DNA of 64,000 nt from Delphinus delphis (lineage: Eukaryota; Chordata; Mammalia; Artiodactyla; Delphinidae), in NCBI RefSeq assembly GCF_949987515.2, contig NC_082690.1:102794400-102858399 (forward strand), read 5' to 3'. The translations under genes and the position numbers were made by a program. Under the pieces are notes generated by a model. That model was not told the DNA's origin, made no database searches, and saw nothing but the letters and a program-made list of their open reading frames with translations. The stretch's first letter is position 1. The number at the start of each line of letters is the position of its first letter. This document shows, piece by piece, positions 3,930-59,149 of the stretch.

Positions 3930-4244
3930 AAATGAACTTATTTACAAAACAGAAATAGAGTCACAGATGTAGAAAACAAACCTATGGTTACCAAGGGGGA
4001 AAGGGGGTGAGGGATAAAGTGGGACATTGGGGTTGACATATACACACTACTATATCTAAAATAGATAAATAATAAGGACCCACTGTATAGCACAGGGAAT
4101 TCTATTCAATACTCTGTAATGACCTATATGGGAAAAGAATCTAAAAAAGAGTGGTTATATGTATAACTGATTCACTTTGCTATACAGTAGAAACTAACAC
4201 AACGTTGTAAATCAACTATACTCCAATAAAATTTTTAAATAAAT
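3930..4244 (+). mobile_element. L1 3' end, 5'-truncated
   Basis: The sequence starts 'aaatgaacttatttacaaaa', continues through 'acctatggttaccaaggggg' and 'actgtatagcacagggaa', and ends 'tactccaataaaat'. These are typical of cetartiodactyl L1 3' ends. A near-perfect duplication of 'aaatagggggtcag' lies at 3916-3929 and again at about 4245-4259 with one extra G, so it is a standard target-primed insertion into the older repeat. Confidence 0.88.
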
Positions 4245-4555
4245 AAATAGGGGGGTCAGGGAGGGCCTTGCTGAGAATGAGACTTCTTCACAAAGACTTG
4301 GATGAAGTGAGCTGTGTGCCTCTCTGGGAGAAAAGGGTTCCTGGAAGAAGGAACAGCAAGTGCAAAGGCCCTGAGGCAGAGACATGGAGCAACAGGAGGC
4401 CAGTGGGGCTGGCGTGGATGCAGGAAGGACAGGAGAACAGCTTACAGAGACAGCAGAGGCTGACAGTGAGGGGACTTTGACTTTCACTCTGCGTGAGATG
4501 AGGAGGCACTGCTGGGTTTCCTGCACAGCAGTGACACAGTCTGATGGAAGTTGAT

Positions 4556-6181: not shown

Positions 6182-6880
6182 TTATTTAACACTTCACGGA
6201 TAGACCTAGAGATTATCATACTAAGTGAAGTAAGTCAGACAGAGAAAGAAAATATATGATATCACTCATACGTGGCATCTAATTTTTTTTAATTATACAA
6301 ATGAACTTATTTACAAAACAGAAAAGACTCACAGATTTCGAAAACAAACTTGTGGTGACCGAAGGGGAAACGTGGTGGGCAGGGGTAGAGATAAATTAGG
6401 AGCTTGGGATTAACATACACACACTACTACATATAAAATAGATAACCAGGGCTTCCCTGGTGGCGCAGTGGTTGAGAGTCCGCCTGCCGATGCAGGGGAC
6501 GCGGGTTCGTGCCCCGGTCCGGGAAGATCCCACATGCCGCGGAGCGGCTGGGCCCGTGAGCCATGGCCGCTGAGCCTGCGCGTCCGGAGCCTGTGCTCCG
6601 CAACGGGAGAGGCCACAGCAGTGAGAGGCCCGCGTATTGCAAAAAAATAAAAAAAAAAAAAAAAAAAAATAGATAACCAGCAAGGACCTATTGTATAGCA
6701 CAGGGAACTCTACTCTATATTCTGTAATAACCTATATGGGAAAAGGAATCTGAAAAAGAATGAGTATATGTATCTGTATAACTGAATCACTATGCTGTAC
6801 ACTTGAAACTAATACAACAATAAACTATAAAATTAACTATAAATCAACTATACTCCAATAAAATTTTTTTTAAATGGTGA
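6182..6880 (+). mobile_element. L1 3' end interrupted by a SINE
   Basis: The sequence contains 'gacctagagattatcatact', 'agtgaagtaagtcagac', 'atatgatatcactcata', 'ttgtatagcacagggaac' and ends 'ctatactccaataaaa'. It is the same L1 type as at 3930-4244 but longer at its 5' side. The CHR SINE at 6450-6666 inserted into it, which dates the SINE as younger than this L1. Confidence 0.88.
6450..6666 (+). mobile_element. CHR-type SINE inside an L1
   Basis: This is a full-length copy with the same body as the SINE at 406. Differences are few ('gggacgcgg' against 'gggatgcgg', 'ccggtccgg' against 'ccagtctgg'). The tail is A-rich. The 14-bp duplication 'aaatagataaccag' lies at 6436-6449 and 6667-6680. 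It is a young insertion of the cetacean type. Confidence 0.95.
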
Positions 6881-8060: not shown

Positions 8061-10498
8061 TGAAGAGAGGAGATGGTATAAAAGAGCTCCTAGTTTGTGT
8101 GTTCAAATATAAGGCTAACAGAAATAAAATATGTCACTGCCAAACCACAACAGAAGAAAAATAGAACAAGAAAAAGCAATGGATTCCACAGAAAATAGGA
8201 ACAAGGAAAAGATTTAAAGGGAAAATATGGTAAAGAAGAAAAAGCATCAAAAGGCCAAACATGACCATAACCACAATAAATGTGAATAGGCTAGAATCAC
8301 TAGGTAAAAGGCAGAGGCTTTTCATTTGGACTTTACAAAAGGAGATGTTAAGCTTAGTTTGCATTCCAGGCTTATGAAGCAGAACATACAATGACTAAAA
8401 TAGAGTCTGGAAGTATTCACACCAAATTGTTACCAGTGGTGATCACTGGTTGGTGAGTTTAGGAGAGATCTTTGTTTTCTTTTTACCTTTCAATATGTTT
8501 TGAATTTTTTGGAAGGGGCATACATTAATTTTATTATCAGGAGAAAAAAAGTTGTTTTTAAAAACAGCTGAAGCACGTCTTCATGGAACCTTTGTTTGCT
8601 GTCCAAACCTGGGTTCCAAAGATGCTCTTAAGAAGGGTCCCTGCCTAACATGAACTGGATGGAATTGAGGCCAGCTGGACAATAACAGAAGGGTGCAGGA
8701 CAGTGTGAAGAGGGGGGCTCCACTGCCCACTCTGAGCTCCACGGGGAGGCAGGAATAATCAAGGAGAGCTCCCTGGAGGAGGAGGCTCTTGTAGTACATG
8801 GAGGATGTGGCCCAAGGGTGAGCCTGGAGATAGCATTCTAGGCTAGGGGCACTGTCTGAGTAAGGGCAGGAGCCCACTGAGCCAGCACAGGGTGCATGTG
8901 GGAAGCAGTGGGTGAGTTGGGGTACAGAGGCCAGGGAGGCGAGGAGGTTGTACCTGTGAGCTACATGAATGGGCCAAGGGAAGAGTGGGCAAGACAAAAG
9001 GAGCAGTGGGAGGGGAGATATTCTTAAAATAGGTGGGCCTCATGCTCCAAAGCACATGAGAATAAATGGCTGGGTCACCATCACTGCTCCATTGCCCACT
9101 CTACCTGCCACACGTCACACACACACTTGAACACACTCATGTACATATATGTGCACATACATCTATACACTCATGCACACACACATGCACACACATTCAT
9201 GCACCACGTGTGTACACACATCCATGCACTCATGTATACATGCACACACATTTTTTGCCCTTTTGTGGCCTCTGGCCCTTTAGCCTGGAGAATTAACTAT
9301 TGCAACCACGGGGGGGGGGGGTGTCTCTTGGCTCAGGTCCAATCTTTCTTGACCTTCCCCCCAGCATGCATTGCTTCCCCACCCCCGCCCTGGCCATGGG
9401 ATACATTGGCTAGCTGCTGCTGAGGGGGTGCCCCCTGGCTTTTAAGCAGGATTTGACAGGAGGGTTTTGCAGTGTGGGAGATGGGTTGCAGGGACAGGAA
9501 CAGAGGCAGGAAGACCAGGGAAGGGACAGCTGTGGAGACAGAGAGGTGGGGGAGGAGAAGTTAGTAGGGCTTGGCCACTGGAGGGGTTGGGAAGTGAGTA
9601 ACAGGAAGCATGAAACAAGACACGGAATTTGGGAGTGGATTTGGGGAGGGGGCAGAGACCTTGGGGAAACACTGAACTTGAGGAACCCATGGGGTGTCTG
9701 GTGACACTAAAAGCCCCATGAAGGACTCAGGAGGGGGTGACCGCAAAGCGGGGCAGCATCAATGACAGTGGACACGTACAAGCGAGGGGACGTGGGGGGA
9801 GGGCTGGGTCACACTGGCTGGGACGCGTGGTGCTTGGATGCCTGCCGGTGACTCAGCCTACACACACACAGAAGTCCTCACGGCGCACGATGTCGTACCA
9901 GCCCCCAGATTAAGAGGACCCCGGGCAATGCTTCTCCTGGGTCAGTCCTCTGCACCGGCAGAGCCAGGCCAAGGGGCAGCAGGGATGCTGGGGGCGGTGG
10001 CAGCCTCACGGCAACCAGGGCAGAGCCAAGGCCTCCCAGCCCACATGGGGCAGGAGCTGCCGTGCCTTTGAATTTGCACCTCCCTCAGAGCCGGGTTAAA
10101 CTGACCAAGGAAATGATTACTAACCCCTCTTCCACAGTGTCACCTGGGCACAGTAACTCCAGCCTGGGTGACTTCAGCCTCCGCTTTCCCCACTTCCCCA
10201 ATTCAGCTTCTCCCAGAGATCCAGGGGCAGCTGCGTCTCTGGGGAGATGCCGGTGGCTTCAGGGTCACACCTCACAGGCTCAGGTCCCCGTCGGAGCCAC
10301 CCTGAGTGACGGCGGCTGAGCAGGCGCTCGGATACCCGCGGGCCAGGTCTGCGAAGCGGGCGCCACTGTCATGCCCCAGGTGGCCTGGCTGGCGGAGCAG
10401 GAGATGCCACGGGGGAGGCAGGCCCCTCACGTCAGCCCCTCTGCCCTGGGCCGGCCTCTGTGAAGTGGGCACCTCCACTGGCCCCCTGGGCAGGCTCC
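8061..10498. other. Intergenic, upstream of the SLC22A12 relic
   Basis: No exon was recognised. It contains an impure CA-rich tract (about 9110-9255), an uninterrupted run of G at about 9311-9322, and otherwise unassigned sequence. The stretch just before 10,499 should contain the old SLC22A12 5' untranslated region and promoter, but no TATA box or convincing HNF1 palindrome was seen. Confidence 0.6.
9110..9255 (+). repeat. Impure CA-rich simple repeat
   Basis: Interrupted CACA/CATG/CACT units ('cacacacacttgaacacact', 'atgcacacacacatgcac') run for about 145 bp. There is no long pure array, which suggests an old microsatellite. Confidence 0.85.
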
Positions 10499-10891
10499 AT
10501 GGCCTTTTCCGAACTCCCAGACTGAGTGGGCAGCCTGGGCAGGTTCCAGGTTCTCCAGATGGTGGCCCTTGTGGTCCCCACCATGTGGCTCACCACTCAG
10601 AATATGCTGGAGAATTCCTCGGCCACCATGCCCAGCCACCGTGGCTGGGCGCCCCTCCTGGACAACAGCACTACCCAGGCCAGTGTCCCCAGGGCCCTGG
10701 ACCCTGAGGCCCTCCTGGCCGTCTCCATCCCACCGGGTCCCAACCACGAGCCCCACCAGTGTCTCTGCTTCCGCCAACCACAGTGGCAGCTCCTGGCAAC
10801 TCCTGCAGCCACCGACTGGAGCGAGGCTGCCACGGAGCCACACGTGGATGGCTGGGTCTATGACCGCAGCACCTCCACCAGCGTGGCCAAG
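10499..10891 (+). pseudogene. SLC22A12: SLC22A12 relic, exon 1
   Basis: ATG at 10,499 begins MAFSELPD and is followed at once by TGA (10,523-10,525). After the stop the frame stays open and clearly homologous: 'LGRFQVLQ', 'QNMLENSS', 'WAPLLDNST', 'SIPPGPN', 'FRQPQWQLL', 'DGWVYDRS', ending VAK before a good GTGAGG donor. Two cysteines expected in the large first extracellular loop are replaced (HRGW for HRCW, TEPH for TEPC). No in-frame ATG soon after the stop restores the first helix: the next, about codon 21, would remove the N terminus. Confidence 0.92.
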
Positions 10892-11595
10892 GTGAGGGCC
10901 TCCCCCATGACCCTCCCCAGGTCCTAGCACCTTAGAGGCCAAAGTCACAGATTACAGTTGGCTGGACTCAAAAATGGCCCAGTCCCAGGAGGGACCCGCC
11001 ACCCCTGGCCTCCACACTCACAGGTGGCTTCTGGCTCCTCCTCGGCCACATTGCCCTACAGGGGTTGGTGGCAGGAATGAGCCTGCAGACGGACACTGTC
11101 CCCAGGCTGTGGAAGAGCAGGTGGTACTAGAGCAGGTCTGATACCCAGGCGGCCCTACTGCTGCAACTCGGGCAGCTCTCTCCACCCAGGAGTCTCAGGG
11201 GACTCAGGGGAGAGTCGCTGGGTTCCCAGAGGCAGGATCCAGCAAATGAGGGAGAGCGGGAGAGGCGGCCCATCCCAGCAGGCAGAAGGGGCCTCTCTAT
11301 GGAACGGGAGGGACGCGGCCTCGGGAAAGCGGGGGGAGGCGCCAGCGTTGCGTGGCTGCTGCCGAGGGGCCAAAGCAAAGGAGGCAGGTGAGGCCAGAGA
11401 GGGCTTGATCCTGGACCTATGGGCAGTAGGAAGCCATGGAGGGGCTTAGGCAAGGGGTGACAGCCCCAGAGGTCACCAGGCCGGCCGCCCGGCCCCAGTG
11501 CCCAGGGCCTTCCCATCTGGCTCCTCTGCGCCCTCCGCCCCTCCCACCTGGGCTATCCAGCCTCCTGAGCTCAGATCCTCTTCCTCTCCCACCAG
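10892..11595 (+). other. Relic intron 1
   Basis: Starts GTGAGG and ends 'ctcccaccag'. GC-rich, with no exon or repeat recognised. Confidence 0.6.
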
Positions 11596-11699
11596 GGGGA
11601 CCTGATGTGTGACTCCGAGGCCCGGAAGCCCACGGCCCAGTCCATCTACCTGGACGGGATCCTGGTGGGAGCTGCTGTGTGCCGCCAAGCCTCTAACAA
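11596..11699 (+). pseudogene. SLC22A12: SLC22A12 relic, exon 2
   Basis: The 104-bp length equals that of the human exon. The translation is [12 protein letters not shown], then [21 protein letters not shown]. The family's leading Trp is Gly here, an Asp is placed inside the second helix (IYLDG for IYLAG), and the loop that carries the MFS signature G-x-x-x-D-R-x-G-R-R has become CRQASNK. The acceptor AG (11,594-11,595) and donor GT (11,700-11,701) remain, although the last exon base is A. Confidence 0.88.
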
Positions 11700-12195
11700 G
11701 TGAGGCCCCCTTTCCCCTCACTGTCCCTGTGCTCCCAGACTCCTGGCCCTGACTGGCCCTGAACTGGCCTCTTGCAGCCGGCCTGGGGAGAAAACTCCGC
11801 TTGCAGTGGAAATACCTGCTCCCGGGTCTCACTCTGACACCCTCCAGCTGTGCCGCTGAGCAAAGCTCAGCCCCTCTCCGGGCCTCGGTTTCACTGACCC
11901 TCCTCTGCGGCCGTGAAAGGTCATTGCCCTCATCAAACGTTCACTGCTAAAACCTGCTCAGCAACGTGCCTGCCTTCCGCTGCTGCTTGGCTGCCCCTGC
12001 TGACAGGGAGCTCACCCCCTGCCCAGCGCCTTCACTCCTGCCTGGGCCGCGGGGGCGCTGCCCACGAGCCCTCCCTCCACGGTCGCAGAATGTGGGTCTG
12101 GCCCTGAGAGGCACTTTAGCACCGCTATGCTCAGCGGGCGAGCGTAGGGTGGGCACACCATGGACCCGGCCGCCCTCCCCGTGCGTGTGCCGCAC
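11700..12195 (+). other. Relic intron 2
   Basis: About 0.5 kb without recognisable genes. The 3' border reads 'tgccgcac' directly before the exon 3 homology, so no acceptor AG is present. Confidence 0.6.
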
Positions 12196-12350
12196 GTTTG
12201 GACTCGGGCTGGTGCTGACCTGGAGCTACTTTCCGACGGCCATGTGGGGCACGGCAGCCGCTTTCCTCCACACCTTCACCGTGTACCGCCTCTTCCGCTT
12301 CCTGGTGGCCTTCGCCGTGGCGGGCGTCACGATGAACACCGGCACTCCCC
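12196..12350 (+). pseudogene. SLC22A12: SLC22A12 relic, exon 3, no splice sites
   Basis: The 155-bp length equals that of the human exon, and it is open in frame: [39 protein letters not shown]. The usual FGRR is FGLG, so both arginines of the MFS loop are lost. The base pair before the exon is AC instead of AG, and the two bases after it are AT instead of GT. Neither border could be spliced by the major spliceosome. Confidence 0.88.
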
Positions 12351-12424
12351 ATAGGTCCCCCGACCCGGGCCGTGCAGGGGAGGCTCGTGCAGCCTCCCAG
12401 GCTGACCCACTTGTCTCCTTGCAG

Positions 12425-12593
12425 TGACGGAGTGGACATCGGCGCAAGCCCGTGCCTTGGCAATGACTTTGAAAGCCCTGGGCTTCAGCTTGGGCCCGGT
12501 CCTGATGGCCGCAGTGGCCTACGGCGTGCGCGACTGGGCGCTGCTGCGGCTGGCGGGCTCTGCCCCCTTCTTCCTCTGCTTCGTGTACCCCTG
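12425..12593 (+). pseudogene. SLC22A12: SLC22A12 relic, exon 4
   Basis: 169 bp, the expected length, with intact acceptor ('ccttgcag') and donor ('gtgggt'). The open frame reads [44 protein letters not shown]. This is the best-preserved exon of the relic. Preservation probably reflects chance or recent gene death, since the exons around it are broken. Confidence 0.9.
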
Positions 12594-15313
12594 GTGGGTG
12601 CTACCCTTCCCCCTCCTCGGAGGAGATAACTGCCCACCCTCCCCCCGGGGCGCAGAGGGCCGGGGTGCAGGAGGCCGGAGGGGAGCCACGGGAGCCTGGT
12701 ACAGCCACAGCTCACCCACTCAACCCAGGGCTTCTTCCCCTGCTCCTCCCACGAGTCTCCACTCCCTCCGCCTTCTTTCCCATCACCTGTCGGCCCTTTC
12801 CCCTCTCCGGTCATCGCCTGCCTTGGCAAGTGTGCCTCGAGGCACGTTTTCTGAGCCCCTCCTTCGTGCCAGGCATGGCAGGACTAGGCCAGATGGGGGA
12901 TGGGCTGCAAAGATCCAGCACACACACACACACACACACACCCCCACTCCCAAAACACAGCCACAGTCAGCCTTACGTACTGACATTATTGCTAGAGGAC
13001 AAGGACCACAACCCAATTGTCAGAGGGGGCCCTAGTTCCTCCACACAGGGCTGACACATGGGAGGCTAGGAAATGTCTGCACTGACCTGAAATGAATCCG
13101 GCATGGCCCTGACCAAGCTCCTGGCACACAGCAGGTGCACAGTAAATATTTGTTGGATGGATGGAGAGATAGATATATAGATAGACAGGCAGACAGATAG
13201 ATGAGTGCATGGTTGGGTGGATGGATGGGTGGATGGGTGGATGGATGGATGGATGAATAGGTGGGTGGATGGATGGATGGCCCTTCAGGGTAGGGCTGAG
13301 CCTCGCTCATCACATATATACAGGCCCAGCACCTGGTAGTCGCTTGGCCATTGCAGCCACCGCAGAAAGGAGCACAGCAGAGGCCCAGTGGAGGACAGGG
13401 CACCTGCACCCGCACTGCGAGGAAGGCTGGCTCCACAAATCTCTCCCAGCCCAACAGCCTGGAGCAGAAAAGTTCTTAATCTGGAGCCTTTAGCAACTAA
13501 TTTGCAGTCACTTGCCAGCGCAGGAGGCAATCACATCTCACGCAGCGGCTCCGGGACGGGGCACTCGTACCTGACAGGTGGCCTTCTGGGATGGCAGACT
13601 GACCCCCATAACAAGAGGGTGAAGGGCAAATGTCAGTGATGCAGAGTCCAGGGCACCCCTCCCGGCTCTCTGATGCTGAGGCTGACTCGCGGGGCTGAGC
13701 CCCACTTTCCTTGGCAGACAGGCCCACACAGGTGCTATGTGCCCACGTGTATTCATTACTCCACTACTTCATCACGTCAACAAATTGCACTGAGAACCAC
13801 CATGGCGGGGGGACTGGCTGGTGCCGGGGTGACAGCGATGAGCAGCACGGACAGGGTCACTGCCCACGTGGAGCTCGCAGGAAATCCCCTGCATCACAGC
13901 ATCACAAACCACGCTTGGGGTTTGACGCATCAGTGGGGGATGTGGACCCATCTGAGGATGGGACCCCCTGGCCCCGCAGCTCCCACCAGCTCCTCTGCCT
14001 CTCTTCCAACCCAATTTCTCTTCGTGAGAAGCGTCTGCACACACAAACCCACTCCAATGACCCTGCCGCCCTCGCTCTGCTCCCCTCACTCGGCCCCTGC
14101 CCAAAAGGGCACCGATGCTCTCTCTCCGGGGATCTCACCTGTGCCCACTGCTCTCCCTCCAAACACTGCAGGCCCCCAACCCCCTCCCCTGTCCTGCCGC
14201 TCCCCGGCCTCCAGCCACCCGCGTGATGTCCCCATTACCAGTGTCTCGGCATCACAAACGTAGCATCTCCTTACCCCTGCTCCTCCCAGGGCCTCCCCAA
14301 CGTTGATGGCGAGACCCCACCCACAGGTACTGGAGTACCTGACACCTGACACCTCCCTCTCCCTCACGGTTGCCGCACCCCAAGTCCAGTAGGTCACAGG
14401 GTCTTGCCAACTCTACCTCTAATGTGCGCTTGAGTCCCTGCTCTGCAAACCCCCAAGGATCTCAGGGACCCGGTGGCTGTGGAGCAGACGGCCCTGCCCT
14501 GGCTGCTGCTGGGGGCGGGGTGCGGGGGGCAACGTGTCTGGCTGGGGGACCTGAGTCTGGAGGCAGGAGCCTGTGCACAGTGGTGGGCACGGAGGGGGCT
14601 CCGAGGCCTGGATGGTGCAGGGGATCTGGGCTTGATGTTGAGGGGGTGGGAGACAGGTTAGTGTTAGGCCCACCCTGAGCCTGGGCCCTGCCACGGGGAG
14701 GGGGCACTGGGATGCCTGAGGCTGGCTGGCACTCAAGACGCGGCGACTGTCACCGGGCATGGGCGAAAGGGCCAAAAGTGAGGCAAGGGCAGTGGGCCGG
14801 TCACCTGCAAGGGGTGCTGGAGGTGAGGGGCATTGGTGACTGATGGGTGCAGTTGGACGGGGCTGGTGATGTCAGGACCAAGGACCCTGCTGCAGGCCTG
14901 AGCCCCTCCCCTGGTGGGTGTGGACCTGTTTGCAGGGAGGGGCACCTGGGGAGGGGCCAGCTCAGGCAGGAAGGTGTGGCCATGGGGATAAACAGAAGGG
15001 CCGTGTGACATAGGGGAGGGCTGGACAGCGGGGGACCCTGGTGGGCTCGCAGGACTGCGGTCCTGGAGCCATTGAGGGCGTCCTTGCTGCACGCAGGCCC
15101 ACCAGCCCTGGGTCCCGGGCGAGGCCGGGGAAGGGCCAGGGGGTTGGGAAGGAGGCAGGAAGCAAGATCAGGGGCCCCCAACCCCAGCCCAAGAGAGGGA
15201 GGAGGGAGGAGGGAGAAAGGGTGGCCTGCAGGGGAAGGAGGGTGCCAGAGGGCGCGGCTTCCGCAGCCCCAGAGCCCTGTGCTGCCTCCCACGACCTCAG
15301 CCACCCTGAGCCT
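12594..15313 (+). other. Relic intron 4
   Basis: About 2.7 kb. It holds an (AC)n run at 12,918-12,940, an old repeat tail around 13,100-13,155 ('cacagcaggtgcacagtaaa'), and a TGGA-rich array at 13,157-13,282. Both strands were scanned for the missing exons 6-8 and nothing convincing was found. Confidence 0.6.
13157..13282 (+). repeat. TGGA/GATA-rich microsatellite
   Basis: Tandem tetranucleotides: 'ggatggatgg' runs mixed with 'gatagatatatagatagac' and 'gggtggatgggtgg'. The array has probably varied in length between individuals. Confidence 0.9.
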
Positions 15314-15439
15314 CGGCTGCCAGTGAGGCCACTCCTCTGGGCAGAAGGGGACGGGCAGGCTGGAGAGGGGCCTGCGGGAGCTACAGAGGGTGGCTGTCGT
15401 CAACGGGAGAGGGCAGTGCGGGACGCACTGACCATCGAG
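15314..15439 (+). pseudogene. SLC22A12: SLC22A12 relic, exon 5, frameshifted
   Basis: Homology is clear in 'GRLERGLRELQRVAVVNG' (compare the human G-R-L-x-x-G-L-Q-E-L-W-R-V-A segment), followed in another frame by AVRDALTIE and a GTGAGG donor. Two frame changes are needed: one at about 15,333-15,353, where the sequence is about four bases longer than expected, and a one-base loss at about 15,408-15,413. The frame used between them soon meets a stop. The acceptor is not clearly identifiable, so the left border is approximate. Confidence 0.82.
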
Positions 15440-15622
15440 GTGAGGCGGGGCTGGGCCTTCCCCCTTGAATCTCTCTTTCACGTGGTCTCAGGGCTGCCCA
15501 GGTGCATCCCGACCCAGCCTGACCCACGGCGCCTCTCTGGGCTGAGCAGGGCCGGGCCAGAGTGAGAGGCCAAAGCCACAGGTAGGCAGTGCGGCCCCTC
15601 ACAGGTGCATCTGTGCAGGCAG
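15440..15622 (+). other. Fused intron remnant; deletion site of exons 6-8
   Basis: This short segment begins as the intron after exon 5 (gtgagg) and ends as the intron before exon 9 ('gtgcaggcag'). The three exons that should lie between are absent, so a deletion breakpoint is inside it. Confidence 0.75.
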
Positions 15623-15827
15623 GATGACCGCAGTGGGCCTGGGCCAGACGGCAGCCCGAGGGGGAGCCATCCTGGGGCCTCTGCTGCGGCTGCTGGGTGT
15701 ACACGGTGCCTCCCTACCCCTGCTGGTGTACGGGGCGGTGCCAGTGCCGAGCGGCCTGGCTGCACTGCTGCTGCCCGAGACCCCGAGCCTGCCACTGCGC
15801 GACACTATCCCATATGTGTGGAGCCAG
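15623..15827 (+). pseudogene. SLC22A12: SLC22A12 relic, exon 9, donor lost
   Basis: Starts after 'gcag' with [54 protein letters not shown], ending WSQ. This is helices 11-12 and the start of the cytoplasmic tail. The frame is open, but the two bases following the exon are GG where GT is required. Confidence 0.9.
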
Positions 15828-16357
15828 GGAGTGGGCCATCCCCTCCACCCTCCGGAGAACCCCAGAAGAGGGCAGGCCTGGCAGCCACCCCTACTGCTGG
15901 ACAGAGGGAGAAGCAGAGGCCCAGAGAGGGATAGGACTGGCCCAGAGTCACACAGCACATTTTTGGGAGATTGGAGACCAAGGGCTGGGTCTCCCGGCTG
16001 ACAGTATGGACTTTGTCCCCTACCCTTCATTCCACCATTTGAGACCTAAATGCCCTAGCTACCCCCCAGCTCCACCTCGGGAGAGATCAAGGGGAAGGGA
16101 GGGTGTAGGACTTTGTGAGAGGGAGAGCTGAGGGTGTGACGGCTGTGCTGCAGGTCCTCACGGGCCCCAGACTCTACTACTAAAGCCCCTAGACGTCTAT
16201 CAAGGCTGTCACTGTGCACCCATCCCCCACGATGTGCTCAGGGAGCTCAGTCCTGGGCCCCTGAGAGCAGGGCAGCAGTATCTCCTAAGTCTTCAGGACG
16301 GACACATGTCAGGGGTCAGGCGTGACTTGCAACCCCTCCGTGCCTCTCCTGAACAGG

Positions 16358-16420
16358 GCAGTAAAGAAGGCAACACACAGCACCCAGGGGCGTCCTGTTC
16401 TGAAATCCACACGACTTTAG
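16358..16420 (+). pseudogene. SLC22A12: SLC22A12 relic, exon 10 and stop
   Basis: The short last exon reads AVKKATHSTQGRPVLKSTRL and a TAG stop at 16,418-16,420. The human tail ends S-T-Q-F, a class I PDZ ligand for PDZK1; this one ends S-T-R-L, which still fits that class. The acceptor AG (16,355-16,356) is followed by one extra G, which would shift the frame if it were used. Confidence 0.88.
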
Positions 16421-17224
16421 GCCTCCTGGGAAGCCTGCGATGGGATGGCAGGAGGAGGCTCTTCTCTGCAGAAGGAGAGCAAAGGCCTCGGTTTCCGGAG
16501 GGCCGGGGGGCTGCCCCTCCAGCCGAGCCCAGCCTCTCACTATCTAAGGAGCCGCCCTGAACACAGAAGGGGCCAAGGAAGGTGTGATTGGCAGGACGCT
16601 GCCCGGTACACCATCACCCGACCTTCTCTCAAGGCTGCTGAGAGAGGAGCAGGGGCACAACCCGACCCGACCCTATGCTTCCTCGCCCCTCACCAGCCCT
16701 GAGCTCACAGGCTGACGTCAGCCACGCTCAAAACCTCCCCAGCTTCTCACACCACCCTGAGGGCTCCGCACAAGCGCCCCTCAACTTTACCAGAGAGACG
16801 GCTCGGGCCCTCCCCATCCCCCTCGCTACTCCAGCCACGCAGCCAGGTCTTCTGCCTGGAATGCTTCTGCCACCTTCCCTACCTGACAAATCCCCCGCCT
16901 CAGCCTCCCATACCCAGGGCAATGGCCTTGTTCTGGGGCCCAGCGCCCAACCCAAGTCTCCAGTGAAATTCTTACCACGGCTGCGGCCACACGCCTGTGA
17001 GTCCCCAGAGGGTTGGGGTGGTCCGCCTCCCCGTGTCCCCAGCTCCCACACAGACCAGAGGGCCATTGGTGCGAGGGAGACGGGAGAGTGAATCAAGGAC
17101 TGTGCCTCGGCGACTCCAGTGATGAGCCCCCAGGGTCTGCCGGCGCAGGGGGTGGGACTTCCTCCCTGGGACGGCCCTTTCCCAGGCCAGCTTCCCTGTC
17201 CTGAGTGCCAGCCGAGTGGCTGCC

Positions 17225-17415
17225 TTTTCCAGCCTCTGCTGTGGGCCAGGCACCGTGCTGGACGCCTCAAGGCATCGTCTCGTTTCATCTTTTCCTGAAC
17301 GCTTTGTGGTAGATGTTGCCCCATTTTACACACGGGAAATCTAAGGCTCAGAGAAGCTGTGCCTGGGTGCCCGTGACACCCAGCTAGGAGGGGCAGATTA
17401 GGAGTCAAGCGCAGG
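17225..17415 (-). repeat. MIR SINE, reversed
   Basis: Typical reversed MIR order: 'gtgggccaggcaccgtgct', 'gttgccccattttacacac', 'ctaaggctcagagaagct', 'cacccagctaggag'. Confidence 0.7.
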
Positions 17416-20400
17416 TCCGAAGGCCTCCAGAGCCAGCTCTGGCCCCGACACCCCCAGCCTGGCCTCAGGCCTCAAAGTCTGGGCATCCAGTGAGCTTCTC
17501 GAGGGCAGGGCCTCCCTCTAAAAACCATCCCAAACCCCCTCACTGGCATCACTTATGGGGAAACCCAGTGCAAGAGCTCAGATGGAAAGGGATGGGCCCC
17601 GAGCTCCCCCACCCCAGCTAACACACTCATGGGTGCAGCAGGAGGCCTTTCCTGCCCAGCGGGGTCCCCGCCAGCTGCCCCATCTACTGAGTCACCCCAG
17701 ACCTGTGCTAGGTGGTCTCTGGTCCACCTGTGCCTGTGCCTCTGCTTCCAGGCACCTCAGCAGAAGGCTGCAGCCTCGACCGACATACACACACACACAT
17801 CAGTGAGGTGTACACACGTGGGCCCACACACGTAAGAAGGTCAACGGGAAATCAGGAAGCAGCTCCCTGGCCCCAGGAGACAGGATCGCTCCCTGGCTTG
17901 GTCATATCTGCCTGGGCCTCTGGGGGGTCGTGTCCTTTAGGTGTCTGCCTGTGGCCACCCCTCAGTGAAGACCCCCAGAACAAAGGGGCTGGGTGTGGGA
18001 ATCACGTTTGTAAAGGTGCCCGAAGGTGAGATTTCGCCAGCCTGCCGTGACCTTCTGTCTTGTCTGCCTGCTGCCCAGCTGAGCCTCAGCTGCCTCACTT
18101 GCTGTTGCTTAGCATTCTTGGGGCCTTATGGGTGTCCGGAAGCCTCCAGCAGGCAGACCCCAGGGCTGGCGGAAGATGGCCCCTCCTCTCCCCAGCGATG
18201 TCCTCCAGCTCACCGAGTGGTCAGAGCTGTCCCTCTGCCCAAATTCAGAACGGCCTTGCTCCTGGTCCTTCCAGGCGGTCACAGCCTTCCAGGACCCAGG
18301 GCCTACCTAATTCCAACATGTCACTCCTCACTTAATTCAACAGGACCTAGAAGCTGGGAGGTGCAGGGCCCTGCCCCTCTGGGGCAGCTAGGGAGTGACA
18401 GAGTGGGCGCCCTACCAAGGGAGAAGGGGCCTCCCTCGGCAGCAGTCACAGGCCTGCAATCAGCTAGGTGCCACCACCCGAAAGGCAGGTCTTCACTTGG
18501 GACACACTCGCTCTTTTGATGCCCGTGCCAGTTTGCTCCCGGCCCCGGAAGCTGCTGGGCACCCTGCAGTGTTAGAGCCAAGGGAAGTGGGTGTGGGAAA
18601 GAAGAACCCACCACCACCCCTACAGTCTCTGCGCCCCCCATGGCAGGAGACGCCTCAGGCAGCAGGCACAGGAAAATGCCTCAGGACCCACTTGGGCCAT
18701 TCTCCTGCCTCCAGCCGGGCCTGCAGCTCACCCAGGAGGGTGTGTGAGGGAGGACAGTGTCAGCAACACAGGCCCCATGTCCACCCCCAGGAGGAGGACA
18801 TCCTCCCAGAAGAGCCCCAGCACTGGCTGAGCTTGTGTTCCCTCCCCTGGGGGCTTTCATGGCCAGTGCAGGTCTTCAAGGTAGAAGGCAGCAGCCAGAC
18901 TTCACTGCAAGCTTCTTCCCCAAACTCCGTCCTTCCTTTCCCATCCCCCTCCCCCGGTAGAATCTCCTGACACACCCCTGCCAGTATCAGCTGGCAAGGA
19001 GCAGCGTGCCTGGAATTCCGCCCCCCCCCCCCGAATGCTGTTTGGACTCTCCTGGGGGTCACTGCCAGCCCAGCCAGACACCAAGGAGCCCAGGTCCGGC
19101 CCAGGTGTTAAGGTCAATATCAGATGCACAGGATGAAGGAGCTAAGAGCAAGGTGACCGTCTCTTACGGACAAGTACACTGAGTCAGCAGCAGAGTCCAG
19201 GAAGCTTTCCTCTTACTACCAAGTCCTTGGGTGGCAGGGCTCTTAGCTTCCTTACGCAGAGAGGAAAACACCCAGTCCCACAGGCACACGGCAGTGAGCC
19301 GGACTGGGGCTCATCCTTCCAGCTCCTGCACGCTCCCTCTTTCTGGCCCCCTACTCTGATAGACTATTCAAGGCCACTCTAGAATTTCTGGAGTAAGGAT
19401 GCTCCCTTCTTGATACCAAGGAAATCCTGCCTGCCTCTCTTTGCTTTCTCTGGCCAGTGGTGATGGGGGAGGAGAACCTGAGCTAAGTCTCCATTCCTTG
19501 GACTGAGAGAGCGGCAGCAGAAGAGCCGGGGGCAAGGCCATTACCGGCACAGGAACAGGATGTCTTGACAAACCTGCCTCAGGTCAGGCCTCCCCCCTCG
19601 GGCTCCCACAGAGGGTTAGAGGCGGCCTCGGTGATGCTGATCTCCAAGACTGAGCAGCTGTAGGAGGCAAGTGGGGCCCAAACCTCCCTCCTGGTGGCTG
19701 GTTCAGGAGGGCAAGGGGAGGCCAAGTCCATGGGGACCCACCTTCAGGGGCCGCTGGGGGAAGACTCGCTCTCCCACCCATGTTAGGACTTGGGGGTGGG
19801 GGGAGGACTCTCAAGGGCCACTGGGGCACAACCTGTGGTGGGAAGGGTGGTCCCACGATAAGAGCTTCGTCCCAGGATGGAGGGAAGGAGGGGGAGATGA
19901 GGCGGCCCTGGGTGGGGCTCCTGTGGGCAGTTGAGCCCAAGGGCCCTCGGTGCTGTCCAGGCCTAAACACAGACCAGGCTTGTGAGCTGGAAGATGTTGC
20001 AAGAATGAGCTGGCCAGCAGCAGAGCCGCCCGAGGTAGGAGCTCAGGAAGCAGAACAGGGCGGTGAAGGGCCACAGTGAGCCAAGAGCACGAGAAAGCAG
20101 AGCCAGGAGGGGGAGGCGAGACCCACCAAGCCGAAGGCAGAGGAGACCTGAGTGACGGAAGCGTGGCTGAGTCCTGTGTCCAGTGGCGTGGCGGCCCACC
20201 GTGGCCCCCTGGGAGACACAGGCCCACCCACACTCTGCTTGCTCTCCCGAGGGTGCCCAGGTGCGCGGCTCCTCGTGTACAACCCCCATCTCAAGAGTCT
20301 CGGCTCCTTTCGACGGAGAGGCTTAACAAATCCAGACCCATCTCACATGTCTGGGACCATGAGCCTGTTTAGTGTCCCCATGAAGAAGCAAACACCTGGT

Positions 20401-20524
20401 CTGAGGTGTGCTGGCTCTACTTCCACCTGCGGCCACAGGGGCTGCCCACCGTCAGCCAGGAGGGGGCAAGGTCCAAACCCTAGAGATGCAGAAGGGGCAG
20501 AGACCGGAGTTAGGCGGAACTAGG

Positions 20525-20612
20525 GGCCAATCTGGACTCAGACACTGAGTTACCTTGAGACCTTGGACCAGCCACTGAAGCTCTTCCCGCCCAGGAATAA
20601 CATCACCTCCCC
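20525..20612 (+). repeat. MIR fragment
   Basis: Forward MIR core: 'gagttaccttgagaccttgg' followed by 'accagccactgaagctcttc' and 'aggaataacatcacctccc'. Short and diverged. Confidence 0.5.
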
Positions 20613-20979
20613 CAAGGGCTGTGTCAAGGCCAATGCCCTGCACACACAGCCACCAGAAGGGCAGGCCCTCTTTAGCCACTAGGGGGCAAAACACTGCTCC
20701 CGTCTCGGGATTTGTCAGCCCCCAGAGAAGCTAAGGTCCGTGGCCAATGGGACCAGAGACCAGTCATCGCTCACAAGCCTGGGGCCTGTTTGCGGTCTCC
20801 TTCCCCAGCCCGCTGGGACATGGGGGTGAGACAAAGACAAGCTGCCCCAAGGTGCCCAAAGTCATGCTCAGCCCAAAACTTTGGGGGCTACTTACCAGCT
20901 CTCGTGGGCTCCAATCTGCACCCAGACCCCAGCCCAGAGCTCAGACCAATGTCCCAAAAGCACCCAACCCGAACAAACT

Positions 20980-22032
20980 GCACAGGACCGTTGGATTTGG
21001 AAAGTTTTTGTTTTCTTTTCCCACACATTTCCGGGGTTGGGGTGTTATCCAAGACTCAGACACATTTGTTAACAAAGAGAGAAAAAAAAAAAACTGGGGA
21101 GCAGGGAGCCTGTGGGCAGATAAGTGACCCCAGCAGTATGCGGGTAATGCCTGGCTCCCTCTCTTCCCTGCTGCCCGCACCCAATGGGTGCCACAGGCTG
21201 CTGCTCGCGATATCTAGATTAATTGTCTTCAATATATATCTGCATTTGCCTTTCCCCTCCCACCCGCCCCCCACCCTGCTCCTCCAGCAGCTTCCCCATC
21301 AATGCACGTCGCCCGGCGGCACACAACAGAACAGGTCTTCCCAGGCCCGAGCCCCTTCCCTGGGCGGAACCAGGCAGGCGCCTCCTCCTGGTGGGCGGAG
21401 CCATGGCTCTCGGGGCCATCCCGGCCCCGCCCCCCGCTGGGACGCTCCGCCCACCCTCCCGCCCTTCTCCCACCGACTCTGGAAACCCAAAGGGAGGAAA
21501 GGAAGGGGGAAACCAGACACACACAAAAAGAACTGGGGAAGGAGGGTGGGGACAGAGAGACATAGCAAGCCTGGGGTGGGGACTGGAGGGCTTGGGAAGA
21601 GAAGGAAGGCTGGGGGAACAGAGGGAGGAGGAAGAAAAATGGAGGAAAATGAACAGGACGAGTAGTTGACACTGTACAAAACCCCCAGTCTTCCTTCCCT
21701 CCCAACCCCACCAAAATAAAACTACCCCCCTTAAAAAAATAAATCAACCCAGGGCTGTGAGCACGTGCCCTGCCCGATGGGCGCAGAGCTGAGAGGGACA
21801 GACAGCCCCAGGACGCACGATGACTCCGCGCCGACGGACGGCAGGAGGAAGGGGACGAGCACGGGGTTTTCCTTTTTTTTTTTTTCTTTCATTTTTTTGC
21901 GTTTCCTCTTCGTGAGAGAAGTCTGAGGCAGCCAGGGAGTGGGTCCCCAGGGCCCCGGCAGGGAGAGGGCCGCACCCTCCTCTCGGGCCCTCCCAGGAGG
22001 GGCAGCTGGCAGTGGGGCGCGGTGCCGGGGGC
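20980..22032 (-). other. NRXN2: NRXN2 3' untranslated region (end approximate)
   Basis: Sequence directly 3' of the NRXN2 stop codon on the minus strand. In transcript sense it carries A/T-rich islands ('gttgatttatttttttaagg', 'agttttattttgg'), long pyrimidine tracts, and an AT-rich patch at 21,206-21,245 inside otherwise GC-rich sequence. No canonical AATAAA was found within 1 kb. An AAGAAA variant in A-rich sequence near 21,010 is the best candidate for the polyadenylation signal, so the distal border is a guess. Confidence 0.5.
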
Positions 22033-22919
22033 TCAGACGTAATACTCCTTGTCTTTGTTCTTCTTGGCCTTGCTGGGCGTCTTGGGGGCAGCCGGGGCCT
22101 TCTCTTTCACCACCGCCCCGTTGCTCTGGGCCGAGTTACTGATGTAGTTCCGGCTCTGGTCCACCTGGTAGGAGCCCTCGTCGCGGTTGCGGTACTTGTA
22201 CATGGCATAGAGGAGGATGAGGATGCAGAGCGCCGCGGCCGCCACGATGCCCACCACCATGCCTGTGGTGCTGCTGGACTCCCGGATCACCTCCACTGCG
22301 CCCGGCGGGCCCCGCTCCCCAGGCCCCGTGGGGTTGGCTGTGGGCAGATGGGGGAAGCCGGGGGCGGAGGTCACGCCGGGGCGCAGGGGAGGGGGCCTCC
22401 GCGGCTCGAAGGACGTGGGGGCCCCGGGCCCCAGGGGTGGGTTCTCCAGCAGGGGCTGCAGCGGGTCTCGGTGGTTCATTTTGCCCGCTGGCAGGTTGGG
22501 GGCCGGGGCGGAGGGGGCGAGCAGCACCCCAGGGGCGCCCGTGGCCCCATCTGTCCTGAGGTTGGGCCGGGGAGCGGGTTTGCGGGGGGAGAGGAGGGTG
22601 GTGCGGTCCGTGACCAGGGGAAAGGTGGTGTAAAAGTCCTCGTCGTCCGTGGGGGGGAGGCTGGAGTCAAAGACCTCGCCGGAGGCAAAGCCCGAGGCCT
22701 CGATAGGCTCCTCGCAGTCGCTGTCGTCCTGCTCGGCCTGGCACGGGCCCCCGGCGGGCGGGCGGCGGGCCGCGGGCGGGGGCAGGGTGTCTTGGGTGGC
22801 ACCCACGCCCGTGAGGAAGGGGTAGAAGGTAGGGGGTGGGGGCACGAAGGGGGATCGGGTGGCCACGGGAGGGGGGTCTAAGGAGTCCTCCGTGATAATG
22901 GGCAATATTAACTCTCCTC
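22033..22919 (-). CDS. NRXN2: NRXN2 last exon: stalk, TM helix, PDZ tail
   Basis: This exon encodes the C-terminal part of neurexin-2, a presynaptic adhesion receptor. After the splice it reads [18 protein letters not shown], then a long Pro/Ser/Thr-rich extracellular stalk, [11 protein letters not shown], the single helix [20 protein letters not shown], the basic stop-transfer YKYRNRD, and a short cytoplasmic tail ending DKEYYV with TGA at 22,033-22,035. The C-terminal EYYV is the neurexin PDZ ligand for CASK and Mint family scaffolds. In the stalk, [14 protein letters not shown] has Ser-Gly pairs in acidic surroundings, as expected of the heparan sulfate attachment site reported for neurexins. 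The acceptor is AG at 22,921-22,920; the joining codon is G|GA. The exon is shared by alpha and beta forms. Length and sequence look fully normal. Confidence 0.97.
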
Positions 22920-24369
22920 CTAGAACAAGAGAGAGAAGAGAAAAGACAGGGCGTCAGCGAGGGCCGGGGTGCAGGCGGCCGGCACAGAGAGAGAAACAAC
23001 AGCCTCACACACCCAAATCGGTTCCAATTGGCTTTGGCGGAGACTAGAGCGGACTGGGCCCGCCCGCCAGCCGGCCGGAGCACTGCGCTTTAAGCTTTAA
23101 GCGGGCAGCGGCTCGGATGCCCTGGGCACCCCACGCACGGGCTCTGTGGCTCTCTGGGTTTTGGTCTTTTGTTTGTCTTAAGAAACCAAAAGGAAAAGAA
23201 AGGAAAGGAAATAGAAAAGAAATGGAAAAGAAAAAAAGAATTCTACTGGTTTAAGGCTTTAAAAACAGATACAAGAGCAGCATTTAAACAAACCTAACAA
23301 CAATATCTTTTAGGGTTTTTTCTGGGTTTTTCTCTTTTTTTGCTTTTTTTTTTTTTTCTTTTGTTTTTAAAAAAGAAGATAGCATACCACGGAATTCAGG
23401 CAACTTACATCAACAAATAGGCCGTGTGATTTTAGCATGAAGAAAAAAATTACAAACAGAGCTGTGTAAGCGGGTTCTCCCGGAAAAAATAAGAAAAAAA
23501 CAACTTTTCCGTACAACGTTTCCTTTCTATCTGTTTGGTATCTCCCTCCCTCACTCTTCTCTCCCTGAACAACTTGCTTCCTCCAGAATACTCTCTCTCC
23601 TCCCTCACTTGGGCCCTCTCCCCCTCATTAAACACAAAGCTGAAATCTGCACAGTGAAGGCTGGCGTTGAGGAACTGTTACCACCACTTGGTGTCAGCGT
23701 GTGGGGGAGGGAGGGAGCAGTGGGAAGGAAGGCTTGGGGAGGAGGCACGTGACAGGCAGCTGCGTAGGAATTGCCTCATGGGTGAGAGGACTTGGGAGGC
23801 GATGAGCATGGGAAGGGGCTTTGAAGGCTAACTGCAGGTTGGTCAAGGGGAGAGGAGAACTGAAGGTGGGAGGTGATGAGGTCCAGGAGGAAGAGCTGGC
23901 AGGGACACACGGGCACATTGGAGGAGGGTCTTATCCTATAGGACTTTGGGAGTGGTGGTGAGAAGCCATGTTGAGGTAAGGAGGTGAGGAAGGACAGGGA
24001 GTGAGTGAGGGAATTGGGCAGGGACACATGATTCTTGAGCTAACCCTAAATCCCCAACTTTCTCTTTCTTCACCCTCCACCTCTGACCCCCACTGACTTC
24101 CCCCCCTCCCCCTCCCCAGAACCCCCATGGGCCGCCAGGACCTGGCCAGGGCTTGACGGCCTCTGGCCCTCTTATTATTGTTTAAAACAATAATAAAACA
24201 ACGGAAAGAAGAAGAAAGCAAAAAAAGAAAAGAAAATACATACACAGCCATCTGGGAAGGATGCACTTGCTAATATAGGGCCCAGGAGAACTACTGGGGA
24301 GGGTCTTTGGGGTAGGGGTGTAGGTCTCCTCACTCCCTAGGTGGGATAACTGGGGTCCCTTGGGCCAAA

Positions 24370-29792: not shown

Positions 29793-30358
29793 TAAGTGTC
29801 CGTCGACAGATGAATGGATAAAGAAGATGTGGCACATACACACAATGGAACATTACTCAGCCATAAAAAGAAATGAAATTGAGTTATTTGTAGCGAGGTG
29901 GATGGACCTAGAGTCTGTCATAGAGTGAAGTAAGTCAGAAAGAGAAAAACAAATACCGTGTTCTAACACATATATATGGAATCTAAAAAAAAAAAAAAAA
30001 TGGTTCTGTTGAACCTAGGGGGAGGACAGGAATAAAGACGCAGATGTACAGAATGGACTTGAGGACATGGGGAGGGGAAAGTGTAAGCTGGGACGAAGTG
30101 AGAGAGTGGCATGGACATGTATACACTACCAAATGTAAAACAGATAGCTAGTGGGAAGCAGCTGTATCGCACGGGGAGATCAGCTTGGTGCTTTGTGACC
30201 ACCTAGAGGGGTGGGATAGGGAGGGTGGGAGGGAGACGCAAGAGGGAGGGGATATGGGGATATATGTATACATATAGCTGATTCACTTTGTTATACAGCA
30301 GCAACTAACACACCATTGTAAAGCAATTATACTCCAATAAAGATGTTAAAAAAAAAAA
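29793..30358 (+). mobile_element. L1 3' end, 5'-truncated
   Basis: Begins 'taagtgtccgtcgacagatg', contains 'gaacattactcagccataaa', 'gaggtggatggacctagag', 'gtgaagtaagtcagaaag' and ends 'actccaataaag' plus an A tail. The 11-bp duplication 'agctgctcacc' is at 29,782-29,792 and 30,359-30,369. It is antisense to NRXN2. The open frame that runs into its 5' part is chance. Confidence 0.9.
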
Positions 30359-57960: not shown

Positions 57961-58350
57961 CAGGGATGGAGGAGGTGAAGACAAGAGAAACGGAAGGGAG
58001 AGCTGGGCAGAGAGGATGAAAGGACAGATGGGGAGGTGGTGAGGGGACCTAAACAGGAGGGTGATAACAAACCAGAGATAGGGATTCGGAGGTAAAGGTG
58101 AGGCGAGGAATGAAAGTGATGAAGAGATGAGGATGATAAAGGGACGGGGTGGGGGGATTGTGATGGAGAGGCGAGGGTGGGGCTGAGATGCTGGGAACCG
58201 AAGATGGTAGGTGAGGGGATGCGGGCCCGCAGGGCCGAGGGGCCGGGCCTCGGCGCTCACGGGCTGGGGTGCGGCCCGCGGGGGCCAGGGCCGCGCACAC
58301 GGGAGGCCCCGGGAGCCAGCCGGCCGGCCGGTATCGGCAGCGCCACTTAC

Positions 58351-58597
58351 CGTGCCCGCCGCGGGTGAGGAAGGGCATGCGGTTGATGGCGATCGGCACG
58401 GTGCCGTGCTTGCTGTGGAAGTGGTGGACGTGGTGGGTGGTGCTGAGGCTGGAGGAGACCCGGGCCCCCTCGGCTGCCCCAAGCAGCAGCAGCAGCAGTA
58501 GCGGCAGCAGAGGTGGCGGCGGCGGCGGCGGCACGGGCCCGGCCAGGGCGGGGGGGCGGCGCGGGCACCCCCCCGGCCTGCTCCCCCCGGGGGGCAT
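58351..58597 (-). CDS. NRXN2: NRXN2-beta first coding exon
   Basis: ATG at 58,597-58,595 opens [20 protein letters not shown], then a proline run, [16 protein letters not shown] (signal-peptide core), [19 protein letters not shown] (the His-rich beta-specific segment), [17 protein letters not shown] and the first base of an Ala codon, before donor gtaagt. This is the beta-neurexin-specific N terminus that replaces all alpha LNS/EGF units. The Pro and Leu runs are coded by GGC/CAG-type triplets on the plus strand and appear a little shorter than I recall for human. The start was chosen by similarity with known beta-neurexins. The upstream base context (gccgaaATGc) has A at -3. Confidence 0.95.
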
Positions 58598-59149
58598 TTC
58601 GGCCCGGGGGCGGCCGCCTCACAGTCCCATGGCCGGGGGCAGGGACGCGGGGCTGCGTAGCCCCGCGAAGCCCCCCTCCGGCTCCGAGCCCCGGGAGGGG
58701 GGTAGGGGTGAAGAGAAGGAAAACCAGAGCCCAAGCCTCGGTCCCGAGCCAACGAAATCAACTGGATACCGCCGGGAAATCCGGGGTCCGCAGAGTGGCA
58801 ACGCCAAGGTCCAGGACGCCTGGGTCCATCGCGAGGAGCTAAGGGTCTCCCCGCATCCCGGCGGGGTCGGAGCGGCGCAGAGAGCCGTCAGAAACCCGGG
58901 GGAGCGCCCGGGGGAGGGGGCATGGTGCCGGGTGGAGAGGTAGGGGAGGCGCGGGGGCCAAGCAGGGAGGGGAGAGCGGGGGAAATCCTGCAGAAAAACC
59001 GAGCCGGGGAGGAGGGGGACTGGAGGAGAGAAGCGGGAGACCGACGGAGGCTAGGGCCGCTGCCGCTGCCGCTGCCGCCCGACGGAGACAGGGGAAAGGA
59101 GGGAGGGGCCGGGGGAGGGGGGGCGGGAGAAGAGAGAAGGGAAGCAAAT

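Follow-up and report, generated by a model that had tools for sequence, protein, structure and literature searches.

Does the Delphinus delphis locus examined here still hold a working gene for the urate transporter URAT1, encoded by SLC22A12, and, if it does not, when in cetacean history was that gene lost? The stretch analysed, hereafter the window, comprises 64,000 nucleotides (contig NC_082690.1, positions 102,794,400 to 102,858,399), and a preliminary description made from its letters alone had proposed that what is inactivated there is the native gene and not a processed copy. Our analysis agrees with this proposal. With a probability that we place at about 95%, SLC22A12 is a unitary pseudogene at its native locus, on which constraint was probably lost early in cetaceans and from which exons 6–8 were deleted later; the unitary nature of the loss follows from the retained introns and the synteny with NRXN2.

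Exon remnants and inactivating lesions

Searches with tblastn using the SLC22A12 protein of Hippopotamus amphibius (P0041) recovered seven exon remnants (exons 1–5, 9 and 10) in gene order, all on the plus strand between 10499 and 16420, and thus the ordered set of exons that had been described before. Exon 1 matched at 10499-10882 (83% identity, E 9e-59), followed by exon 2 at 11593-11706, exon 3 at 12197-12346, exon 4 at 12430-12600, part of exon 5 at 15351-15422, exon 9 within 15501-15848, and exon 10 at 16352-16411. The exon boundaries listed in Table 1 were inferred from the reading frame and the known gene structure. Downstream of its premature stop, exon 1 resembled the solved URAT1 chains best (E down to 1.1e-56) with SLC22A11 far behind (1.9e-37), and no other solved transporter comes as close to it as URAT1. 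The joined surviving pieces gave hippo SLC22A12 the top score among the best 120 of 330 matches, most of which carry the name SLC22A12 while a few are unnamed or hypothetical, and were identical to P0041 at 305 of 386 positions and to the warthog protein at 306 of 386. The matches of exon 1 and of the joined pieces assign the remnant to SLC22A12 and not to a paralogue. Pfam detected no family in the three pieces tested, all of which are short, and an Rfam scan likewise returned none.

The surroundings are those of the native gene: the seven exons are separated by introns, an SLC22A11-like gene lies upstream, and NRXN2, with its coding end at 22036 and a syndecan-type end found by Pfam, is arranged tail to tail with the remnant, as had been noted before. 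Synteny was judged against what we take to be the human gene order at the SLC22A12/NRXN2 locus.

The stop at codon 9, reached in frame from the ATG at 10499, is present as first described. In an alignment of 71 orthologues, chosen from 137 proteins by a length of 545–556 amino acids (isoforms, fragments and fusions were dropped) and including near-duplicates from primates and pigs as well as an old human cDNA (P0018) with many odd residues, this position is arginine in 30 sequences and glutamine in 29, and an origin of the TGA from an arginine codon via a CpG change is plausible. The several lost splice sites of the preliminary description were reduced to two clear cases, namely the acceptor of exon 3 (12194-12195) and the donor of exon 9 (15828-15829), while the exon 1 donor, both exon 2 sites, the exon 5 donor and the exon 9 acceptor are seemingly kept. 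The donors of exons 3 and 4 are displaced rather than clearly lost. Similarly, one of the two proposed frameshifts is clear, since the matching frame switches inside exon 5, whereas the second is only likely and would lie at the junction of exons 3 and 4 or of exons 4 and 5, where an extra base precedes exon 4 and a late GT follows it.

The proposed loss of three exons was upheld, since exon 5 is separated from exon 9 by a mere 183 nt and the searches for exons 6–8 turned up nothing convincing: the corresponding hippo residues (313-465) reached a best E of 0.16 within 12600-16350, a pig SLC22A12 query reached 0.13 within 10000-22000, and the exon 7 part of the gray-whale protein reached 0.052 in the latter interval, on the minus strand. 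A reading of 15501-15620 as exon 8 joined to exon 9 was discarded as spurious, because this segment contains a stop and its E of 0.033 was obtained in a short interval. Motif A (GxxSDRFGRR) is degraded in the window copy, which thus lacks both the intact motif A and the exons 6–8 that a functional SLC22A12 transporter of the MFS (major facilitator superfamily) type would have; instead, it shows inactivating lesions in several exons, as expected of a unitary pseudogene. The window does not contain any N.

Table 1 Features of the SLC22A12 locus, in positions of the window
Feature	Position	Strand	Observation
SLC22A12 exon 1 remnant	10499..10891	+	TGA at codon 9 (10523-10525); donor GTGAGG kept
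SLC22A12 exon 2 remnant	11596..11699	+	AG/GT splice sites kept; G164R changes the first glycine of motif A
SLC22A12 exon 3 remnant	12196..12351	+	acceptor AC for AG; GT 3 nt past the expected donor
SLC22A12 exon 4 remnant	12425..12596	+	1 extra base at start; donor GT 1 nt late
SLC22A12 exon 5, 3' part	15351..15439	+	frame change near 15407; 5' part unrecognisable in frame; donor GT kept
Deletion of SLC22A12 exons 6-8 and introns	15440..15622	.	183 nt left
SLC22A12 exon 9 remnant	15623..15827	+	frame open; acceptor AG kept; donor GG for GT
SLC22A12 exon 10 remnant	16358..16420	+	terminal stop TAG at 16418-16420; 1 extra G after acceptor AG
NRXN2 last coding exon	22036..22920	-	open; tail-to-tail neighbour of SLC22A12; used as quality control

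Timing of the loss and alternative explanations

Among the best 120 of 330 matches, the closest protein by identity was a partial record of 316 amino acids from the gray whale Eschrichtius robustus, a mysticete (P0136; 86% over 64% of the query), which also bore the sole cetacean name among them. At 246 shared sites the window agrees with gray whale at 214, with hippo at 191 and with pig at 188, and the two whale sequences formed a clade with a bootstrap of 100 in a 22-taxon protein tree. They differ by 13% at the protein level, a divergence larger than expected among rorquals and in keeping with a toothed whale. Whales, hippo and pigs together were supported at 86, and all artiodactyls including musk deer at 38. 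A grouping of the whales with hippo rather than with pigs was not adopted (support 32), and by plain identity warthog stands level with hippo. The hippo gene, as the orthologue from the sister group of cetaceans, is annotated at full length with a frame of 553 amino acids and shows no lesions, in contrast to the dolphin copy.

Across the 71 orthologues 98 alignment columns are invariant, and the window departs from them at 10 of 69 covered columns and the gray whale at 10 of 53. Both whales cover 40 of these columns and carry the same change at five (F40S, C49G, V138M, G164R and Q262R), with three further columns changed in the window alone and one in the gray whale alone. When each orthologue was left out in turn, the median number of changes was 0, with hippo at 1 of 93 and the highest values in the old human cDNA P0018 (11 of 103) and a bat (4 of 96); this baseline refers to the whole protein, whereas the whale values refer to surviving pieces only. 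In addition, C116, which is kept in 70 of 71 orthologues, is replaced by histidine in the window and by arginine in the gray whale, and motif A is degraded in both, differing in its second half. Near hippo residue 127, close to the end of exon 1, both whales have a net shortening of two residues relative to the 71 orthologues, of which 70 share one length and the remaining one is longer; the window row lacks one further codon there, as the first codon of exon 2 was left out of the piece. P0136 itself covers residues 21-125, 128-276 and 357-418, the last of these amounting to most of exon 7, but neither residues 277-356 nor anything beyond 418. With codon 9 lying outside this record, the comparison of toothed and baleen whales is one at the protein level only, comprising the changes at invariant sites and the net shortening by two residues.

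Because identical changes occur at five of 40 invariant columns in both whales, constraint on SLC22A12 was probably lost before the lineages of the window and the gray whale split, although some of the common changes could date from a time when the gene was still functional. Exon 7 is retained in the gray-whale model, so that the deletion of exons 6–8 is younger and confined to the lineage of the window. Of the comparison with whales that had been recommended, the gray-whale protein yielded shared substitutions, while the deletion turned out not to be shared. P0136, the closest relative among the matches listed, is less diverged than the window copy and is annotated as a protein though seemingly broken; it is recorded as 'Solute carrier family 22 member 12, partial', yet it resembles a translated pseudogene.

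A search for a further, intact copy was carried out exon by exon in the animal's own assembly (2.66 Gb in 630 contigs, in which the window is C8:102794400-102858399). Among the best 78 of 101 candidates, hippo SLC22A12 gave 53 exon matches, five of them in the window at 60–80% identity, and the best match outside it reached 60% and corresponds to exon 1 of the upstream neighbour; many lower matches cluster at C8:101.7-101.9 Mb and look like other organic anion transporters. Genome-wide, exons 6–8 (hippo residues 313-465) gave eight matches, none above 52% identity, and no intact copy was found elsewhere in the assembled sequence. It is therefore extremely improbable that the remnant is a mere duplicate of an intact SLC22A12 located elsewhere. 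Nothing was found in favour of such a copy beyond the possibility of assembly gaps, while the remnant itself sits at the conserved locus, beside NRXN2 and downstream of the SLC22A11-like gene. We consider it hardly more probable that the lesions are artefacts of assembly or sequencing: a single assembly stands behind them, but they are several and of different types, the window is free of N, the last NRXN2 exon is open and shares 98.98% identity over 295 residues with a stretch of human NRXN2, and the same substitutions occur in the independent gray-whale record. A truncated yet functional product, formed by re-initiation at Met21 or from exons 9–10, is comparably improbable, for although Met21 is present and the frame of exon 9 is open, the exon 3 acceptor and the exon 9 donor are lost, exons 6–8 are gone, and motif A, C49 and C116 are changed.

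More serious, though still unlikely, is the explanation that the lesions are restricted to the lineage of the window and that other cetaceans, including the gray whale, keep a working URAT1. Its strengths are that P0136 covers exon 7, so that the deletion is not common to both whales, that the gray-whale model reads through the exon 3–4 junction, that three invariant sites are changed in the window only, and that cetaceans are not named among the species lacking SLC22A12 by Sharma et al. (2018). Against it stand the five identical changes at otherwise invariant sites, the loss of C116 and of parts of motif A in the gray whale, and a record that begins past codon 9 and ends at residue 418 with a further gap before exon 7.

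Several points weigh against the main reading as a whole, a unitary pseudogene with an early loss of constraint in cetaceans. The lesions are known from one assembly of one individual, whose 630 contigs leave room for a copy in an unassembled part, and only the best 78 of 101 candidates were scored. Decay in the gray whale is deduced from a partial protein model rather than DNA, and this model is open across the exon 3–4 junction. The protein listings comprise the best 120 of 896, 938 and 330 matches, respectively, and some of their clusters are unnamed. Furthermore, Sharma et al. screened four cetaceans (dolphin, orca, sperm whale and minke whale) and called the loss specific to flying foxes (PMC5865188); either the cetaceans were left unclassed for SLC22A12, or the present case disagrees with it.

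No cetacean name occurred among the best 120 of 896 and the best 120 of 938 proteins, though less similar mammals were present. Artiodactyl SLC22A12 among the matches listed came from hippo, pigs, peccary and musk deer, with no cattle or camel, and the listed sheep and ibex entries resemble other SLC22 proteins merged into single models; the gene may have been lost in further lineages, or the annotation may simply be incomplete.

The SLC22A11-like neighbour and the remaining window

A second transporter gene spans C8:102765304-102778858, with exon 1 at C8:102765304, about 29 kb before the window. Its first 98 residues matched SLC22A11 (OAT4) best (E 6.7e-41 versus 5.1e-31 for URAT1), while over the 34 residues following a frame break a URAT1 chain was slightly better (1.9e-14 versus 4.5e-12). 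The frame of exon 1 changes near 102765596, within a run of five C, and exon 4 carries an in-frame TAG at 102770306; a TGA at C8:102778838 was left uncounted, as the exon may end before it. Judged by these lesions, both members of the tandem pair of SLC22A12 and the SLC22A11-like gene are dead.

Further into the window, the start of an open frame at 58049-58618 on the minus strand resembles the first exon of the NRXN2 beta form. Two copies of a short interspersed element (SINE) at 405-617 and 6448-6660, each of 213 nt and 95% alike, are flanked by apparent target-site duplications; together with another near 37439 they presumably belong to the CHR family of whales, hippos and ruminants. A 5' CHR motif gave three matches and a 3' motif none, and a ruminant SINE motif was without any match in the window; these are weak hints of the clade. 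Related A+T-rich repeat fragments of two families occur in the same order at 4058-4247, 6666-6862 and 30137-30358, the second of them directly after the SINE at 6448, and they probably represent parts of a single interspersed element, with the SINE having split one of them.

Urate handling and gene loss in cetaceans

In the proximal tubule, URAT1 is the apical urate-reclaiming transporter, and renal hypouricaemia results when it is mutated (PMC7582461); in humans, loss of SLC22A12 accompanies nephrolithiasis and kidney failure (PMC5138847). We propose that SLC22A12 came free of constraint early in cetaceans, before the two lineages split, and that lesions would then have built up separately in each, the later deletion of exons 6–8 among them. 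Once apical urate/anion exchange is missing from the proximal tubule, less filtered urate would be reclaimed and fractional urate excretion would rise, which may be tolerable because uricase turns urate into allantoin and plasma urate stays low. Plasma urate in dolphins is more than 16-fold below that of humans, and a uricase route to allantoin in seals and dolphins is cited within the same paper (PMC4898134). A further objection arises here, as no uricase activity was found in dolphin plasma (PMC4898134), so that this step relies on that paper's citation of others and on the uricase-family exons of the animal's own genome. Three such exon matches, free of stops, were found at C1:73524922-73543916; they are consistent with a working UOX and constitute a partial test of the gene.

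In open-licence full text, with subscription papers and supplementary tables outside the scope of the search, SLC22A12 loss was reported only for flying foxes (Pteropus), by Sharma et al. in 2018 (PMC5865188) and again in PMC11014510; a cetacean case may already be on record elsewhere. In Pteropus, Sharma et al. linked the absence of the gene to dilute urine on a fruit-juice diet (PMC5865188). The two cases have in common the same gene, lost in a mammalian lineage, with renal transport presumably affected, but cetaceans are marine and live on protein- and purine-rich prey, and the dilute-urine account is therefore not directly transferable. Gene losses in early cetaceans are also on record for DSG4, DSC1, TGM5 and GSDMA (PMC5865188), which are skin genes with read support from four cetaceans, whereas SLC22A12 is represented by one genome and one protein record. 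In this respect, the present case adds a new example to a familiar kind of event.

Kidney stones of dolphins are reported to consist exclusively of ammonium urate and to occur in 35% of a managed group versus 0% of a free-ranging one (PMC3797464), and a genetic candidate is already in print, as dolphins lack the stone inhibitor TFF1 (PMC12772130). It is tempting, albeit rather doubtful at this stage, to extend the argument to a loss of the whole pair of SLC22A12 (URAT1) and SLC22A11 (OAT4) in early cetaceans, convergent for URAT1 with fruit bats despite opposite demands on urine concentration, with the resulting urate leak as a genetic cause of ammonium urate stones under managed, high-purine diets. 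As a fixed loss cannot account for the difference between managed and wild animals, such a leak would have to be a predisposition that acts together with diet.

What makes the locus of interest is that cetaceans converge here with fruit bats under opposite urine demands, that the SLC22A11-like neighbour is lost as well, and that a link to stones is possible. A dead SLC22A12 in a whale means that loss of this gene is not tied to the lifestyle of fruit bats, and either the adaptive account given for these bats needs to be revised, or SLC22A12 is expendable where uricase keeps urate low. If true, a constitutive urate leak would be a candidate predisposition for the urate stones of dolphins, for which diet may serve as the trigger.

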